Shown here: positions 1,452 to 11,986 of the stretch, piece after piece
How the letters are laid out: every line of letters begins with the position of its first letter
How positions within the stretch are numbered: the first letter of the stretch is position 1
Source of the DNA: a virus
IMG/VR virus record: IMGVR_UViG_3300017917_000028
Location: 1 to 23,593 of that record
DNA: 23,593 nt
Strand: one strand, 5' to 3'
Position numbers and translations under genes: made by a program
The notes under the pieces: generated by a model
Databases searched by the model: none
Told to the model about the DNA's origin: nothing
What the model saw: only the letters and a program-made list of their open reading frames with translations

Positions 1452-1478
1452 TAAAAAGCTCTTAAAAATCAAGAGCTT
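1452..1478 (-). terminator. intrinsic terminator after the VWA/metallopeptidase gene
   Basis: On the minus strand an 8-bp stem AAGCTCTT / AAGAGCTT (1471-1478 and 1456-1463) with a 7-base loop is followed by a run of five T. The first arm overlaps the stop codon at 1477. The stem is AT-rich, so termination may be partial. Confidence 0.6.
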
Positions 1479-3777
1479 ACGATGCAATACCATCAATGAA
1501 CCGTGACACCATCACACGGGAAAACTGCTTTTTCTTGTTCATTTTCATAAAGGCATTCTTCAATTTACCAGCTGTAACAGCACCATTAATAACCAATTCA
1601 TCATTTTCAATATTCAAATCAGAACCACCAGGAATAATAAAGAATGATTCATAACCAGGATTGTATGATTGTAAGAACTTATTGTCACGCAATTGACTTA
1701 CCAAATCTTTAACGAAATCCGATTTAGTAAAGTTGATGTATCGTGGGCAATTAGCACCATATTGTTTCTTAACAATTGCATATACTGATTCACCTTTATC
1801 ATTAATGTATCGCTGAGTTACACCTTCACGAACACGATATCTGTCACCAGCAATAAAGAAACCAAAGATTTTAGATTCAGTCTGTTTTGCAAACCAATCA
1901 AAGATTGCAATACGCAAGCCATCATCATAACTATAATGGTCATGGCGAGATTCTTTCACTTTGAATTGTTTTTTATCGTGGTTGATAAACACATTAGATT
2001 CACTTAAACCAAAACTCTTAGAACTCATGATAGTTTTTTCTGGAGAGATTACATTCTCAACATTATACCTAGATGAATTATCAGCATCACCATCATGCAC
2101 AATCACCAAGTTGACCAAGTCTAAATTGTTCACTTTGCGAAACTGTTTAACAATTGGTTCTAAGGCAACCATTGCTTCATTCAATGGTGTATTGGATAAA
2201 TCTTCATTCAATGGGCGACCAAAGTATCTTGTTTCATAAGAGAGTTTAAGTGCAACCAAATTACGAATGGCTTTATTGTATTCAACACCACTCATTTTTG
2301 AGCTTAGGTATTCACGCAAGTAAACATTATCAAAGGCAAACTCATTAAGATTTTCAGTAAAACATTTTTTACTATACTCATCACGACCATAGTCCATCAT
2401 ACGGCCTTCAATAGAGTTACCAAAACCATACACCACAAAAGGAATATTCACTTTGCGACAGAAGGCAGACAACACCATAATCTGTTCAATGGAACCTGCC
2501 ATGTTTTGTGACATAGAACCAGAACGGTCAAGCAACAACACTAGACCATGTGATTTGCCTTTAGGCACACGCATAGTCTTACGGAAGATATTGTCATCTA
2601 CTTGATAACGATATAAACGAGAGATATCAATATCACCAGTATTTGACACTTTGGCCTTAGCGAATGCCTTAGCTGCTTTCTTCATTTCAAATTCTTTGGC
2701 TAACAAACCAATATAACGGTCATTCTTAGTTTTGAAATCATTAACTGCTTTGTTAATACTTTCGTTTCTATGTGTCAACTCAGGATCATCATAGTAATTA
2801 CTTAAAAACTTATGCACATCTTTATAAGGTGTGACAATGTTTTCTAAGATTGGTTTAGGGAATTTTAAATACAAATAAGGTTTACATTGTTCATCTAACA
2901 ACTTATCTTCATTCTTACGGAATGCTTTATCAGTAGAACATTCAGGTTCAAATTGGTCTTTTGATGATACTTTAGAATCTTTGAATCGCTCTAATTGACC
3001 ATCATATTCTTCTTCACCATCATCAAGTTCATCACCTGATTGTTTTTTGGTTTGACCTTCTTCACCATCACCTGATGGTTTACCTTTTTCACCTACTGAT
3101 TGTTCGGCATCACCATCAAGTTCATCACCATCACCGTCACCATATTCACCATCAAAATCACCATCAGGATTACCAGAGGCAGCTGCCATAGATTGAAGCA
3201 TCTCTTGCATTTCAAATTGTTCATTCTTTGAATAATCAAATACTGATTGAGTAACACGAATTACATCGTCCCATGTTTCACAAGATTCAACTTGTTTTAC
3301 CAAGTCCAATTCTTCATCAGTGAAATTGATGGCTTTGATACCATTCAATTTAGTATGAATATTTAATCGGTCAATAAATGACATTTGATTTAAGTCACGG
3401 TTTTTAATTTGAAAGAAATCATTACTAATAAGGTACTCATAACCTTTTAGAAATGATAAACGAAGGCCAGGATATTTACGCTTAACTTTTTTCTCAATGC
3501 GAGCATCTTCAACCACATTAAGGAAACCTTTGTAATTAGCACCACGCTTAGAAACGGCATCATGCCAACCTTCAGGCGGTGTATAGAGAGCATGACCAAC
3601 CTCATGACCCATTAATAAGTCATACAAGGCACCAGTCATATTCTGCCAAATAGGACAGTATAGAACACGATTTTTAGGGTCAAATTTAGCCGTTGAAATC
3701 TTTTGGTGTTCAATACGGAGATTTTCAGTAGCCATCAACTTGGCTAATTGTGATTTTTGTTCAACTGTAAATGTCAT
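1477..3777 (-). CDS. CobT-like protein: metallopeptidase-like N-terminus plus VWA domain
   Basis: A 766-residue protein with three parts. The N-terminus carries HEVGH (58-62), a zinc-peptidase HExxH motif, then VVEDARIE (88-95), which could supply the third glutamate ligand of a gluzincin. A very acidic Asp/Gly/Glu linker spans about 205-260. The C-terminus is a von Willebrand A domain starting near 410, with the MIDAS motif DRSGS at 417-421. CobT cobaltochelatase subunits have the same order of acidic linker then VWA. HExxH-plus-VWA-like proteins are known as DUF2201. The partner is almost certainly the MoxR/CobS-like ATPase encoded next. The HExxH motif fits a proteolytic or zinc-dependent role better than cobalt chelation. 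Its own strong promoter and terminator flank it. Function in infection is unknown. Confidence 0.85.
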   Translation of the reverse strand: MTFTVEQKSQLAKLMATENLRIEHQKISTAKFDPKNRVLYCPIWQNMTGALYDLLMGHEVGHALYTPPEGWHDAVSKRGANYKGFLNVVEDARIEKKVKRKYPGLRLSFLKGYEYLISNDFFQIKNRDLNQMSFIDRLNIHTKLNGIKAINFTDEELDLVKQVESCETWDDVIRVTQSVFDYSKNEQFEMQEMLQSMAAASGNPDGDFDGEYGDGDGDELDGDAEQSVGEKGKPSGDGEEGQTKKQSGDELDDGEEEYDGQLERFKDSKVSSKDQFEPECSTDKAFRKNEDKLLDEQCKPYLYLKFPKPILENIVTPYKDVHKFLSNYYDDPELTHRNESINKAVNDFKTKNDRYIGLLAKEFEMKKAAKAFAKAKVSNTGDIDISRLYRYQVDDNIFRKTMRVPKGKSHGLVLLLDRSGSMSQNMAGSIEQIMVLSAFCRKVNIPFVVYGFGNSIEGRMMDYGRDEYSKKCFTENLNEFAFDNVYLREYLSSKMSGVEYNKAIRNLVALKLSYETRYFGRPLNEDLSNTPLNEAMVALEPIVKQFRKVNNLDLVNLVIVHDGDADNSSRYNVENVISPEKTIMSSKSFGLSESNVFINHDKKQFKVKESRHDHYSYDDGLRIAIFDWFAKQTESKIFGFFIAGDRYRVREGVTQRYINDKGESVYAIVKKQYGANCPRYINFTKSDFVKDLVSQLRDNKFLQSYNPGYESFFIIPGGSDLNIENDELVINGAVTAGKLKNAFMKMNKKKQFSRVMVSRFIDGIAS

Positions 3778-3810: not shown

Positions 3811-3839
3811 ATTATATCACAGATTACCGTTTTTGTCAA
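3811..3839 (-). promoter_or_regulatory. consensus sigma70 promoter of the CobT-like gene
   Basis: Minus strand TTGACA (3834-3839), 17-bp spacer, TATAAT (3811-3816), plus extended -10 TG. Both hexamers match the consensus exactly, making this the strongest promoter in the window. The -35 and spacer lie inside the end of the preceding 64-residue gene. Confidence 0.88.
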
Positions 3840-4011
3840 GCCAGCGTCTAAGCTCTTGTTTTATAACGGTATTTTTGGCAACTTCATTGAGGACATGGTC
3901 TATTCCATGTGTTTTAAAGGCATCCAGAACATCGGCAACACAGCTGTAAAAGTGCATTTCTTCTTGTTCCAAAAGAGTGTGGGAATAATCTTCATAGTGT
4001 TGTTGTTGCAT
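3817..4011 (-). CDS. small protein of unknown function, 64 residues
   Basis: I do not recognise this protein. It is 64 residues, mostly predicted helical, with a Gln/His/Glu-rich start and a basic end (RRWLDKNG). No membrane segment or signal peptide is visible. Coding is supported by AGGAG placed six bases before the ATG and by an extended -10 promoter upstream (4036-4041). It is the first gene after the tRNA-like unit and its terminator. Its end carries the promoter of the CobT-like gene. Small single genes with their own early promoter often encode host-takeover or modulatory proteins in T4-like phages, but nothing here shows the target. Confidence 0.65.
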   Translation of the reverse strand: MQQQHYEDYSHTLLEQEEMHFYSCVADVLDAFKTHGIDHVLNEVAKNTVIKQELRRWLDKNGNL

Positions 4012-4035
4012 ACTATTCTCCTATTCAAAGAAGAT

Positions 4036-4064
4036 AGTATAACACATATGGTATTTATTTGAGG
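4036..4064 (-). promoter_or_regulatory. extended -10 promoter of the small gene (weaker)
   Basis: Minus strand TGTTATACT gives an extended -10 element at 4036-4041. The -35 position (4059-4064, CCTCAA) matches poorly. It stands between the terminator at 4071-4099 and the start at 4011, so a promoter is needed here. Confidence 0.5.
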
Positions 4065-4070
4065 CAAAGA

Positions 4071-4099
4071 TAAAAAAAGAAACCCCACCGAAGTGGGGT
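4071..4099 (-). terminator. intrinsic terminator after the tRNA-like RNA
   Basis: Minus strand stem ACCCCAC / GTGGGGT (4093-4099 and 4082-4088) closed by a TTCG tetraloop, then TTC and seven T. A textbook rho-independent terminator about 20 nt downstream of the tRNA-like CCA end. Confidence 0.92.
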
Positions 4100-4119
4100 A
4101 AATAGACGCATAAAAATTC

Positions 4120-4186
4120 TGGAGCGGTGTCTTGGAATCGCACCAAGCAAGTAGATTGGACACCTACTCTAGTCTAACTACACCGC
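4120..4186 (-). tRNA. D-armless tRNA-Gly(UCC)-like RNA, 67 nt
   Basis: The minus strand folds as a shortened tRNA. The acceptor stem has 7 perfect pairs (GCGGTGT / ACACCGC), followed by discriminator T and an encoded CCA. The anticodon stem is GTAGG / TCTAC (one G-T pair) with loop TGTCCAA, giving anticodon TCC. The T stem is CTTGG / CCAAG with loop TGCGATT. Discriminator U73, C35, C36 and the first three acceptor pairs are the known bacterial glycine identity elements. It is odd in several ways. Only 12 nt replace the D arm, holding at most a 3-bp hairpin. The variable loop is 3 nt. Universal U33 is G and U55 is G. It has its own promoter and terminator. It may be a decayed tRNA, or a functional tRNA-like RNA that does not serve normal translation. 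Confidence 0.7.
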
Positions 4187-4195
4187 ATTGATATA

Positions 4196-4224
4196 ATTAT
4201 ATAGGACTTTTTTATTGAAATCAA
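4196..4224 (-). promoter_or_regulatory. sigma70-like promoter of the tRNA-like RNA
   Basis: Minus strand TTGATT (4219-4224), 17-bp spacer, TATAAT (4196-4201). The -10 ends nine bases before the first base of the tRNA-like acceptor stem, so transcription would start within about three bases of it. Confidence 0.78.
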
Positions 4225-4246: not shown

Positions 4247-5590
4247 TTATCTACCGACTTGCCCTAAGTATTTCTCTTTTGTTTCTTCCCATGAAAGGTA
4301 AATCAAATCATCATAAAATAAAACTTCACTTGATACTTTATCTTTCTTCTTTAGAAAACCAATTCGGCCTCTAGCGTGTTTCTCTTTCCAAATCTTGACT
4401 AGAGATTCGTATGATGTATCAAAAGATTTTACCAATTCAGTTTCTTTAATCTCACCACGCAAGAATTCATAGGAGTTTGTGTATAACGGACTAAAGTATA
4501 TACCTCTTGCGTGCTCAGTTCTGATTAGTTCTTTAGGCACATTCATCTTAGAGTAAGTAAACGCTAGAGACCTATTTTTATGGTCACGTTTATGTGGTTG
4601 ACCACTTGGTTTTTTTGCAACATACCATTCAAAGTATTTGCGAGTATGATTTGCCTTTAACCATTCACGAATTCTATAACGAGTTTCTCTTTCAGGTTCA
4701 AATGATACTGAGCCTGATGTGAAACCCATTGGTTGCCAATGGTCAAGGTTATCATATTGAGAAAGACCACCTGCTTTAGTTTTGCCATACAATGAGGTTG
4801 TAGTTACACCGACAAGTGTATCACCATATTGTTTCTTCCAAAGTCTTTGAACTTCATCAGATAAACATAACAAAGCAAGTAGTTTGCCGCCAACATAGTT
4901 ATAACCTAGAGGTTGAAACGGAACAATAGTAGAACCAATCGCAGTATGATTAATCATACCACCAGTAGTTTTCAAATCCCTTGGCCACCCGATGACCTCA
5001 TCCCGAGGTGTTAAATCCAAAAAGTCAGACGAGATACAGATTACTCCGAGATACTTGCCTGTTTTATTATCTTTCACAATAAAGTTAAGATTGCGGCCAA
5101 TGTTACTATTGTTTTTCATTGTAGAAATAAAGTTCCTGATTGTGTTCCATGTTTCAGGTAATTCTTTATTTCTCTTTCTGTCAACCTTGACTTCTGTGCC
5201 ATCTACCGCAATACGAGTAGTTTCACCAGAATCATCTGTATATTCCAATACAGGTTCCAAGTCAAGGTAAGAATCTGGATTCTCAGGAACCCAAATATTG
5301 TTTTTAACAGCATCAACAATCTTCTGTTGAGCTGGGTCAACAAGGAATACTTCTTCTTCACCAAAGACGGTCATATTTCTTTGTGTAGGATATTTTTGTT
5401 GAATCTCACACCACTTTTGGTAGAGTGTATATTCTTTAACATCCATTTGAGAAACATATGTCAAATCTTTAATGACAGTTTCACGCAACTCACCCTCATC
5501 AATATTCAAATATGTTGATGGTGGGTTGGCTTCTTGCCATTTCTGCCATTGTGTTTCTACATCATCTTTAGGGTCAAATGCGTATGCCAT
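4247..5590 (-). CDS. DUF4338 / DruA-like protein
   Basis: A 447-residue protein whose central part (about 165-290) resembles the DUF4338 family, which includes DruA of the Druantia anti-phage system. The cues are a beta-strand with YLGVICISSDFLDL (180-193), then TPRDEVIGW, then INHTAIGSTIVPFQPLGYN, a GGKLLALLCLS helix and GVTTTSLYGK. I recognise this by pattern and could not run a profile search. The N-terminal 150 residues and the basic C-terminus are not assigned. The start overlaps the end of the deformylase gene by 17 bp, so the gene is the last of the 55-47-46-deformylase operon. No membrane segment is visible. The biochemical activity of DUF4338 is not settled. A role in DNA metabolism or in inter-phage competition is inference from the neighbourhood only. 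Confidence 0.6.
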   Translation of the reverse strand: MAYAFDPKDDVETQWQKWQEANPPSTYLNIDEGELRETVIKDLTYVSQMDVKEYTLYQKWCEIQQKYPTQRNMTVFGEEEVFLVDPAQQKIVDAVKNNIWVPENPDSYLDLEPVLEYTDDSGETTRIAVDGTEVKVDRKRNKELPETWNTIRNFISTMKNNSNIGRNLNFIVKDNKTGKYLGVICISSDFLDLTPRDEVIGWPRDLKTTGGMINHTAIGSTIVPFQPLGYNYVGGKLLALLCLSDEVQRLWKKQYGDTLVGVTTTSLYGKTKAGGLSQYDNLDHWQPMGFTSGSVSFEPERETRYRIREWLKANHTRKYFEWYVAKKPSGQPHKRDHKNRSLAFTYSKMNVPKELIRTEHARGIYFSPLYTNSYEFLRGEIKETELVKSFDTSYESLVKIWKEKHARGRIGFLKKKDKVSSEVLFYDDLIYLSWEETKEKYLGQVGR

Positions 5591-6158
5591 TCTTATAGTG
5601 TTTCTTTACTTTGTTCATTAATTTAATTTGTTTCTTCTTTGCTAATTGTAACGCAACTGGACCAACTTTAGAGGTAAATGTGATACCATTCAAGTGGTCT
5701 AGTTCATGTTGAAAACATTGGGCAGTGATACCACTCAATGTAATCTGTTTCAATTCGCCTTGTTCGTTATAGAATTCAACATCAATCTCCGAACTTCTTG
5801 CTATAGTAACAAATAAACCTGGATAAGAGAGGCAACCTTCTTGTCTTTTAATGTGTTCTGCCGGTTTACCAACAATTTTTGGATTAATACAGGTCATAGT
5901 AAAGGCATCTGTGCCGATAACAAACATTCTGGCCTTCACACCACATTGATTAGCGGATAAACCAAAACCATTATACATTCTCATTGTAATGCGTAATTGT
6001 TCAGCCAATCTTGATGTATATTCGTTGGGTAGTGTTGAAACATCCATTTCAGGCATAACTTCACGCAACATAGGAAACTCATCACCATAAATTGGTAAAG
6101 GTTGTAATTGTTCCTGTTTTGTAATACCGGAACCAGTATCAATAATTAATTCACTCAT
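5574..6158 (-). CDS. def: peptide deformylase
   Basis: Removes the formyl group from the N-terminal methionine of new proteins, with an active-site metal. All three family motifs are present in 194 residues: GFGLSANQ (64-71), EGCLS (107-111) and QHELDH (150-155), which give the metal-binding Cys and two His plus the catalytic Glu. The enzyme appears intact. It has about 25 residues of extra N-terminus before the canonical fold. Phage deformylases are known in marine T4-like phages, where they are thought to support fast processing of host or phage proteins. Start and stop overlap the neighbouring genes (4 bp with gene 46, 17 bp with the DruA-like gene), which indicates translational coupling. 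Confidence 0.95.
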   Translation of the reverse strand: MSELIIDTGSGITKQEQLQPLPIYGDEFPMLREVMPEMDVSTLPNEYTSRLAEQLRITMRMYNGFGLSANQCGVKARMFVIGTDAFTMTCINPKIVGKPAEHIKRQEGCLSYPGLFVTIARSSEIDVEFYNEQGELKQITLSGITAQCFQHELDHLNGITFTSKVGPVALQLAKKKQIKLMNKVKKHYKNGIRI

Positions 6159-11592: not shown

Positions 11593-11986
11593 GCAATTGG
11601 AAAGTTCTACTGTTGAGTTCCTTTAATACTGCTTGGCAAACATCAACAATTTCTTCGTGCATCAACTTACTTGCCGTGAATTTGTTTAAATCTTCATCAC
11701 TCTCCATATATGTAGATATGTCGGATTTCAACACAAATGGAAATGGCTCCCAGCCATAATGTTTTAATTGGGCATCATCCAGTTTACCTGTATAATATTC
11801 CCATTTAATCTTTTTCATTTTGTTATACTTGAATTCGGCTTCTTTAGCCAAAAGACGGTGACGAGAAAGTATATTCAAATACTTACTGTGTAGTTGGGGT
11901 ATATTGATTAGTTCTTTACCTGGTTCTGTTCTATCAATAACAGAATCCTTACGCCACATTTCAAGTAGTTCTTCAAGTTTGTTCAT
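11552..11986 (-). CDS. uvsY: recombination mediator UvsY
   Basis: Loads UvsX recombinase on single-stranded DNA coated by gp32. Similarity to T4 UvsY is recognisable over the whole 144 residues: an N-terminal LEELLEMWRKDSVID segment, a central basic helix with HRLLAKEAEFKYNKMKKIKWEYYTGKL, and a C-terminal helix DVCQAVLKELNSRTFQLRDFI. The length is close to the 137 residues of T4. An AAGGAGG ribosome-binding site precedes the ATG, and a sigma70-like promoter is at 12009-12037. uvsW follows with an overlap. uvsX is not in the window. Confidence 0.93.
   Translation of the reverse strand: MNKLEELLEMWRKDSVIDRTEPGKELINIPQLHSKYLNILSRHRLLAKEAEFKYNKMKKIKWEYYTGKLDDAQLKHYGWEPFPFVLKSDISTYMESDEDLNKFTASKLMHEEIVDVCQAVLKELNSRTFQLRDFIAWERFIQGV

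Follow-up and report, generated by a model that had tools for sequence, protein, structure and literature searches.

Genomic context of a tRNA-like RNA

The window considered here, a 23.6-kb fragment (23,593 nucleotides) from IMG/VR, derives from a T4-like phage as judged by its gene content. It encodes a terminase, sheath, tube, portal, protease, scaffold and major head protein, together with a UvsY-like protein, a helicase, a late sigma factor and SbcD/SbcC-like subunits. On the minus strand, genes for an SbcC-like subunit, a peptide deformylase and a DruA/DUF4338 protein are followed by a short tRNA-like RNA, a small open reading frame (ORF), a CobT-like 'peptidase' and a CobS-like ATPase, in that order (Table 1). 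A family search with the 64-aa product of the small ORF gave no match; this product begins with EDYSHTLLEQEE, and promoter-like sequence is visible by eye upstream of the ORF in several relatives. ARAGORN detected no other tRNA in the fragment.

Table 1 Features surrounding the tRNA-Gly-like RNA, with positions in the window
Feature	Positions	Strand	Details
'Peptidase' phrog_459/CobT-like protein	1477–3777	−	766 aa; anchor gene of the co-occurrence test
Conserved small ORF	3817–4011	−	64 aa; flanked by the RNA and the CobT-like gene
Intrinsic terminator	4072–4100	−	Hairpin TACCCCAC-TTCG-GTGGGGTT, then a run of T; begins about 19 nt past CCA
tRNA-Gly-like RNA	4120–4186	−	67 nt; G1 at 4186, A of the encoded CCA at 4120; direct sequence, conserved covarying family
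Sigma70-type promoter	4196–4224	−	−35 TTGATT (4224–4219), 17-nt spacer, −10 TATAAT (4201–4196), 9 nt before G1
DruA/DUF4338 protein	4247–5590	−	447 aa; predicted GNAT fold, proposed partner enzyme
Peptide deformylase	5574–6158	−	Pfam PF01327, E = 2.2e-36; overlaps the start of the DruA gene

The 5′ half of the RNA reads GCGGUGU AGUUAGACUA GAGUAGGU GUCCA AUCUACUU and is followed by G CUUGG UGCGAUU CCAAG ACACCGC U CCA. As an earlier note on this DNA had claimed, the acceptor stem (GCGGTGT/ACACCGC) is a perfect 7 bp, the T stem (CTTGG/CCAAG) is likewise perfect, and U73 and an encoded CCA can be read directly. The promoter and terminator that it had placed on either side, the latter about 20 nt beyond the CCA, are also present at those distances. 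Three details of the fold, however, differ from that description. The D arm, said not to be a real one, is a mini-hairpin (TAGT-TAG-ACTA) with a 3-nt D loop; the anticodon loop, taken as 7 nt with G33, is narrowed by a U32–A38 pair to 5 nt (GUCCA); and the variable region, given as 3 nt, measures about 1 nt once the extended anticodon stem is counted. The T loop, UGCGAUU, departs from UUCRA and lacks the universal U55, as had been stated, and G18–G19 are absent from the D loop. U55 normally pairs with G18 (PMC10853795), and both are missing from the phage RNA.

The RNA is not reported as a tRNA by ARAGORN, and the covariance-model check that had been suggested earlier gave the same outcome, with Rfam RF00005 not reporting it at the gathering threshold or even at E ≤ 10; it belongs to no Rfam family. 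Its ARAGORN and covariance-model scores, an anticodon loop that is not 7 nt with U33, and a T loop and D loop without UUCRA and G18–G19 set it apart from canonical bacterial tRNAs. Folded as a single sequence, it is modestly better than its shuffles (z = −2.31). An 87-aa ORF with a GTG start (3900–4163) crosses the RNA; because relatives of the RNA vary in length from 63 to 70 nt, we consider it unlikely that the RNA is part of a protein-coding ORF.

A conserved and covarying RNA family

Relatives gathered through the CobT-like protein and through the DruA protein carry an equivalent RNA 3′ of the DruA gene, usually 5–75 nt away, and 50 distinct freshwater-type versions occupying the same position in T4-like phage contigs were parsed and compared. 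G1–C72, C2–G71, G3–C70, G4–C69, U73, CCA and a CC in the anticodon loop are invariant in 50 of 50. The search for this set was itself keyed on GCGG/CCGCUCCA, but nearly all loci recovered through the protein carry this pair of motifs too. Pairing at acceptor position 7 is not maintained. Anticodon-stem pairs form in 94–100% of the RNAs, compared with 42–80% when partners are shuffled, percentages that lean upward because stem boundaries were set by a pairing-maximising script, with four rows set by hand, and that come from permutation tests that ignore relatedness. The variety of pair types is independent of how these boundaries were chosen: pair 32–38 is Watson–Crick in every version and takes four forms (UA 27, CG 13, GC 6, AU 4). 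The loop measures 5 nt in 29 RNAs (GUCCA, UACCC, UUCCC, UCCCC, GCCCA) and 4 nt in the other 21 (CCCA, CCCC). The mini D hairpin, of 3–4 bp, recurs in 48 of the 50 versions against 7.1 expected in shuffles, which makes the label 'D-armless' inaccurate. T loops across the family, including UGCGAAU and UUUAACU, differ from UUCRA, and the anticodon arms of the main RNA types cannot be aligned with one another. The best promoter score per upstream region (n = 49) averages 9.4 of 12, compared with 7.9 in shuffles, with several regions carrying TTGACA-17-TATAAT; a terminator-like hairpin lies downstream in 30 of 49 sequences.

These observations bear on whether the RNA is a decaying tRNA pseudogene or a chance tRNA-like sequence, as its invisibility to ARAGORN and Rfam and its modest single-sequence z score might suggest. 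Against this stand dozens of compensated variants, invariant functional positions, promoters and terminators. Chance is implausible because several pair types occur at many positions, and stem covariation led us to reject both decay and chance, a reading that we regard as exceedingly improbable. At the relatives' locus, where decay might have left a normal tRNA-Gly with uncompensated changes in this copy, we found instead abnormal versions with compensatory changes. The earlier proposal of a maintained, probably non-proteogenic RNA is thereby strengthened, since the relatives are equally abnormal, their changes are compensated and their identity elements are invariant. The existence and conservation of the RNA family are established; a literature search reaching few preprints and no subscription papers found no earlier description of it.

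Some loci depart from the common arrangement. Two different odd Gly-tRNA-like RNAs stand in tandem behind a single DruA gene in contigs L068, L072, L073, L077 (5709–5776 and 5780–5848) and L069 (5625/5696), and in L075 an insertion of about 0.5 kb (4747–5313), possibly a piece of a homing endonuclease, separates DruA from the RNA. A few type-B RNAs (T loop UUUAACU; L383, L424 and L457) have longer anticodon loops, one reading U33-UCC, which suggests that the length of this loop drifts.

Linkage of the RNA with DruA

The RNA and the DruA gene co-occur. Of the contigs that reach 2.2 kb or more upstream of the CobT-like gene, 38 hold both DruA and the RNA, 1 holds DruA only, none holds the RNA only and 11 hold neither (Fisher p ~3e-10, not corrected for phylogeny). 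Scans using patterns of the RNA alone recovered DruA in the fetched stretch at 114 of 118 type-B loci, at 46 of 120 loci with T loop UGCGAAU and at 25 of 124 with GGCAGUA, figures to be read in light of many fetched stretches being short, marine DruA genes lying kilobases away and a few matches being plainly chance. Whole records gave a DruA-family gene in 18 of 26 with a pattern match and in 0 of six contigs without the odd RNA.

There are exceptions. Of the 74 DruA loci with sufficient sequence downstream, 14 lack an adjacent odd RNA, as does L057; these fall in two DruA clades, and DruA can therefore exist without the odd RNA, unless it uses ordinary Gly-tRNA there. A relaxed scan of G001, a DruA-positive contig of 133 kb from an RNA-less clade, found no odd RNA. 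The few bacterial Druantia DruA genes inspected have no adjacent odd tRNA; the cyanophage DruA relatives have no adjacent odd RNA in S-CAM9, and a scan of six cyanophage records returned normal-looking tRNA-Gly only.

The RNA might instead act independently of DruA, as a decoy for glycyl-tRNA synthetase (GlyRS), RNase P, an anticodon nuclease or a tRNA-acetylating toxin, or as a regulatory RNA. Its own promoter and terminator, an acceptor end that mimics a tRNA fully and a variable anticodon loop would suit such roles. We nonetheless think them rather unlikely, given the nearly exclusive co-occurrence with DruA and the invariant acceptor identity elements, U73 and encoded CCA, which most of them would not need. 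Of the functions listed in the earlier note, linkage to DruA thus favours a glycine donor over a decoy, nuclease bait or plain regulator.

Predicted fold and relatives of the DruA-like protein

The 447-aa protein matches DUF4338 (Pfam PF14236; E = 6.5e-19, 68.6 bits against a curated cut-off of 27) and the PADLOC DruA model (E = 6.7e-17). DUF4338 has been classed as GNAT (PMC10853773). In a Foldseek search of its AlphaFold model (pLDDT 82.5, pTM 0.80) against the PDB, the best matches are all GNAT acetyltransferases, though of modest significance (best E 0.0097, none below 0.001); a sequence search for solved structures gave no meaningful match. An invariant GGKL motif is common to the DruA family, including the phage protein; it falls within the region that commonly binds CoA in GNATs, a placement that is no more than suggestive. 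No other Druantia genes (DruB–E) are among the identified neighbours in the window, which does not make up a Druantia system, and no bacterial relatives of the phage DruA were confirmed in the genome collection.

Cyanophage DruA relatives are flanked by gp44 and gp62 of the replication operon, a setting that fits a role on DNA. The type that the inspected cyanophages carry at this position, a shorter DruA of about 370 aa, is also present as a second paralogue beside the longer one in G022, G023, G025, G029, G031 and G047. In BFVD, structural relatives of the DruA-like protein are found in giant viruses (A0A3G4ZXG3, A0A5K0UAJ3 and A0A3G4ZRA1; Faunusvirus, Yasminevirus and Dasosvirus).

A GNAT-like fold is also compatible with a toxin-like enzyme that acetylates Gly-tRNA and stops host translation, in which case the odd RNA could be a decoy, an inhibitor or a preferred substrate. 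Some TacT toxins prefer Gly-tRNA, TacT is among the weaker Foldseek matches, and the protein is tightly linked with a chargeable-looking tRNA-Gly. Yet these matches (E 1.2) rank below many other GNATs, TacT toxins are small whereas DruA has 447 aa with large extra regions, and an RNA that does not decode would not shield phage translation from acetylation. We judge such an activity unlikely.

Versions in marine and cultured phages

Carriers of the odd tRNA-Gly include many uncultured freshwater phages, and a related version occurs in ocean phages. DruA relatives with 54–58% identity are found in the Pelagibacter phages HTVC008M and Mosig, which also encode, some kilobases from DruA, a full-length odd tRNA-Gly with anticodon ACC and T loop AGCGUUA or GGCAGUA. 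In HTVC008M (KC465899.1, 91140–91213, + strand), it is the sole tRNA found. Neither record annotates it as an RNA, and that of Mosig has a short ORF called across it. Marine pelagiphage-type contigs carry this second kind more widely (T loop GGCAGTA or AGCGTTA, anticodon ACC or UCC), 4.7–7.8 kb downstream of DruA in 18 of the 20 contigs of sufficient length to judge. Marine contigs also have another odd tRNA-Gly(GCC), at 11673–11747 in L263 and about 2.2 kb from the GGCAGTA type, with a D arm of normal length but G55 and A18.

Glycine identity elements without a normal decoding loop

The identity elements read by E. coli (bacterial) GlyRS are those that the phage RNA retains, namely G1–C72, C2–G71, G3–C70, U73, C35 and C36. 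The claim that the glycine identity elements are preserved, made earlier for the single RNA, extends to the family, with the acceptor pairs and U73 invariant and CC in every loop. Judged from sequence, the RNA keeps the parts needed for glycine loading and has lost those needed for codon reading; its loop of 4–5 nt, being closed by a pair, presents no normal anticodon. Two large relatives have ordinary tRNAs as well: an RF00005 search reported 25 in G022 (214 kb) and 34 in G023 (169 kb), among them normal tRNA-Gly(UCC) and tRNA-Gly(GCC), and did not report the odd RNA of either.

That the RNA is a working decoding tRNA of unusual shape appears quite improbable to us. Truncated mitochondrial tRNAs, which likewise have a reduced D arm and a non-standard T loop, offer a precedent, CC at 35–36 is kept, and loops of 7 nt that carry the anticodon ACC or UCC do occur, in the pelagiphage versions and in a few of the freshwater RNAs. 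The mitochondrial tRNAs, however, keep 7-nt anticodon loops for decoding, whereas the 50 freshwater-type loops have 4–5 nt and are closed by the covarying 32–38 pair. Normal tRNA-Gly(UCC) and tRNA-Gly(GCC) are present in the same genomes, and decoding would leave the DruA linkage unexplained.

Discussion

The best explanation, and one that we hold to be reasonably probable, is that the RNA carries glycine for the DruA enzyme and does not decode. We infer that the phage would make this RNA from its own promoter, and that host GlyRS would load it with glycine, recognising its acceptor pairs, U73 and anticodon-loop CC. The 4–5-nt loop and altered elbow should then exclude it from the ribosome, and the neighbouring DruA-like enzyme, a predicted GNAT, would take the glycine and transfer it to an acceptor outside ribosomal synthesis. 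Phage DNA would be the likeliest candidate, with glycine as a protective base modification; this choice of target is a guess that we offer tentatively. A full tRNA-dependent DNA modification, in which a DruA-family GNAT moves glycine from a dedicated non-decoding glycyl-tRNA onto DNA bases, is more doubtful still. Use of aminoacyl-tRNA by enzymes with a GNAT fold has precedents in FemX and MurM.

Several known systems resemble parts of this proposal. The non-proteogenic tRNA-Gly of staphylococci, the parallel named in the earlier note and the substrate of the FemX/FemA/FemB peptidyltransferases, likewise keeps glycine identity, has an altered elbow and is extra to decoding tRNA-Gly (as the phage RNA is in G022 and G023); it is served by a GNAT-fold transferase, as is proposed for the phage RNA. 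Unlike it, the phage RNA is phage-encoded, has a 4–5-nt anticodon loop and a D arm of 3–4 bp, and adjoins DruA, whereas the staphylococcal RNA serves the cell wall. The partner protein matches the family of Druantia DruA and has its invariant GGKL, but it is encoded by a phage, lacks DruB–E in the window and adjoins an odd tRNA-Gly, which the bacterial genes inspected do not. Mom of phage Mu, which puts a glycinamide-like group on adenine, has the GNAT-type fold predicted for DruA and a phage setting in common with it, and the annotation of one cyanophage DruA relative reads 'methylcarbamoylase mom'; homology of DruA to Mom was nevertheless rejected, as the two have no detectable sequence similarity (hhalign probability 0.1%) and Mom has a separate Pfam family. 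TacT and AtaT toxins are GNAT enzymes that act on aminoacyl-tRNA, as is proposed for DruA, but they are small members of two-gene toxin–antitoxin systems, and their structural matches to DruA are weak.

The RNA would constitute a widespread phage family that escapes standard tRNA finders and for which there is a clear candidate partner protein. That it is nearly always found with a DruA-type acyltransferase gene suggests a phage-made glycine carrier outside protein synthesis. We found no established biochemical activity for DruA, a component of defence systems, and a linked glycyl carrier makes such an activity directly testable; experiments are possible because two cultured SAR11 phages carry a version of the RNA. 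If the carrier role is true, the non-ribosomal use of aminoacyl-tRNA would extend from bacterial cell walls to phages, and if the DNA-modification reading is also true, the DruA of Druantia defence systems would gain a biochemical activity as well.
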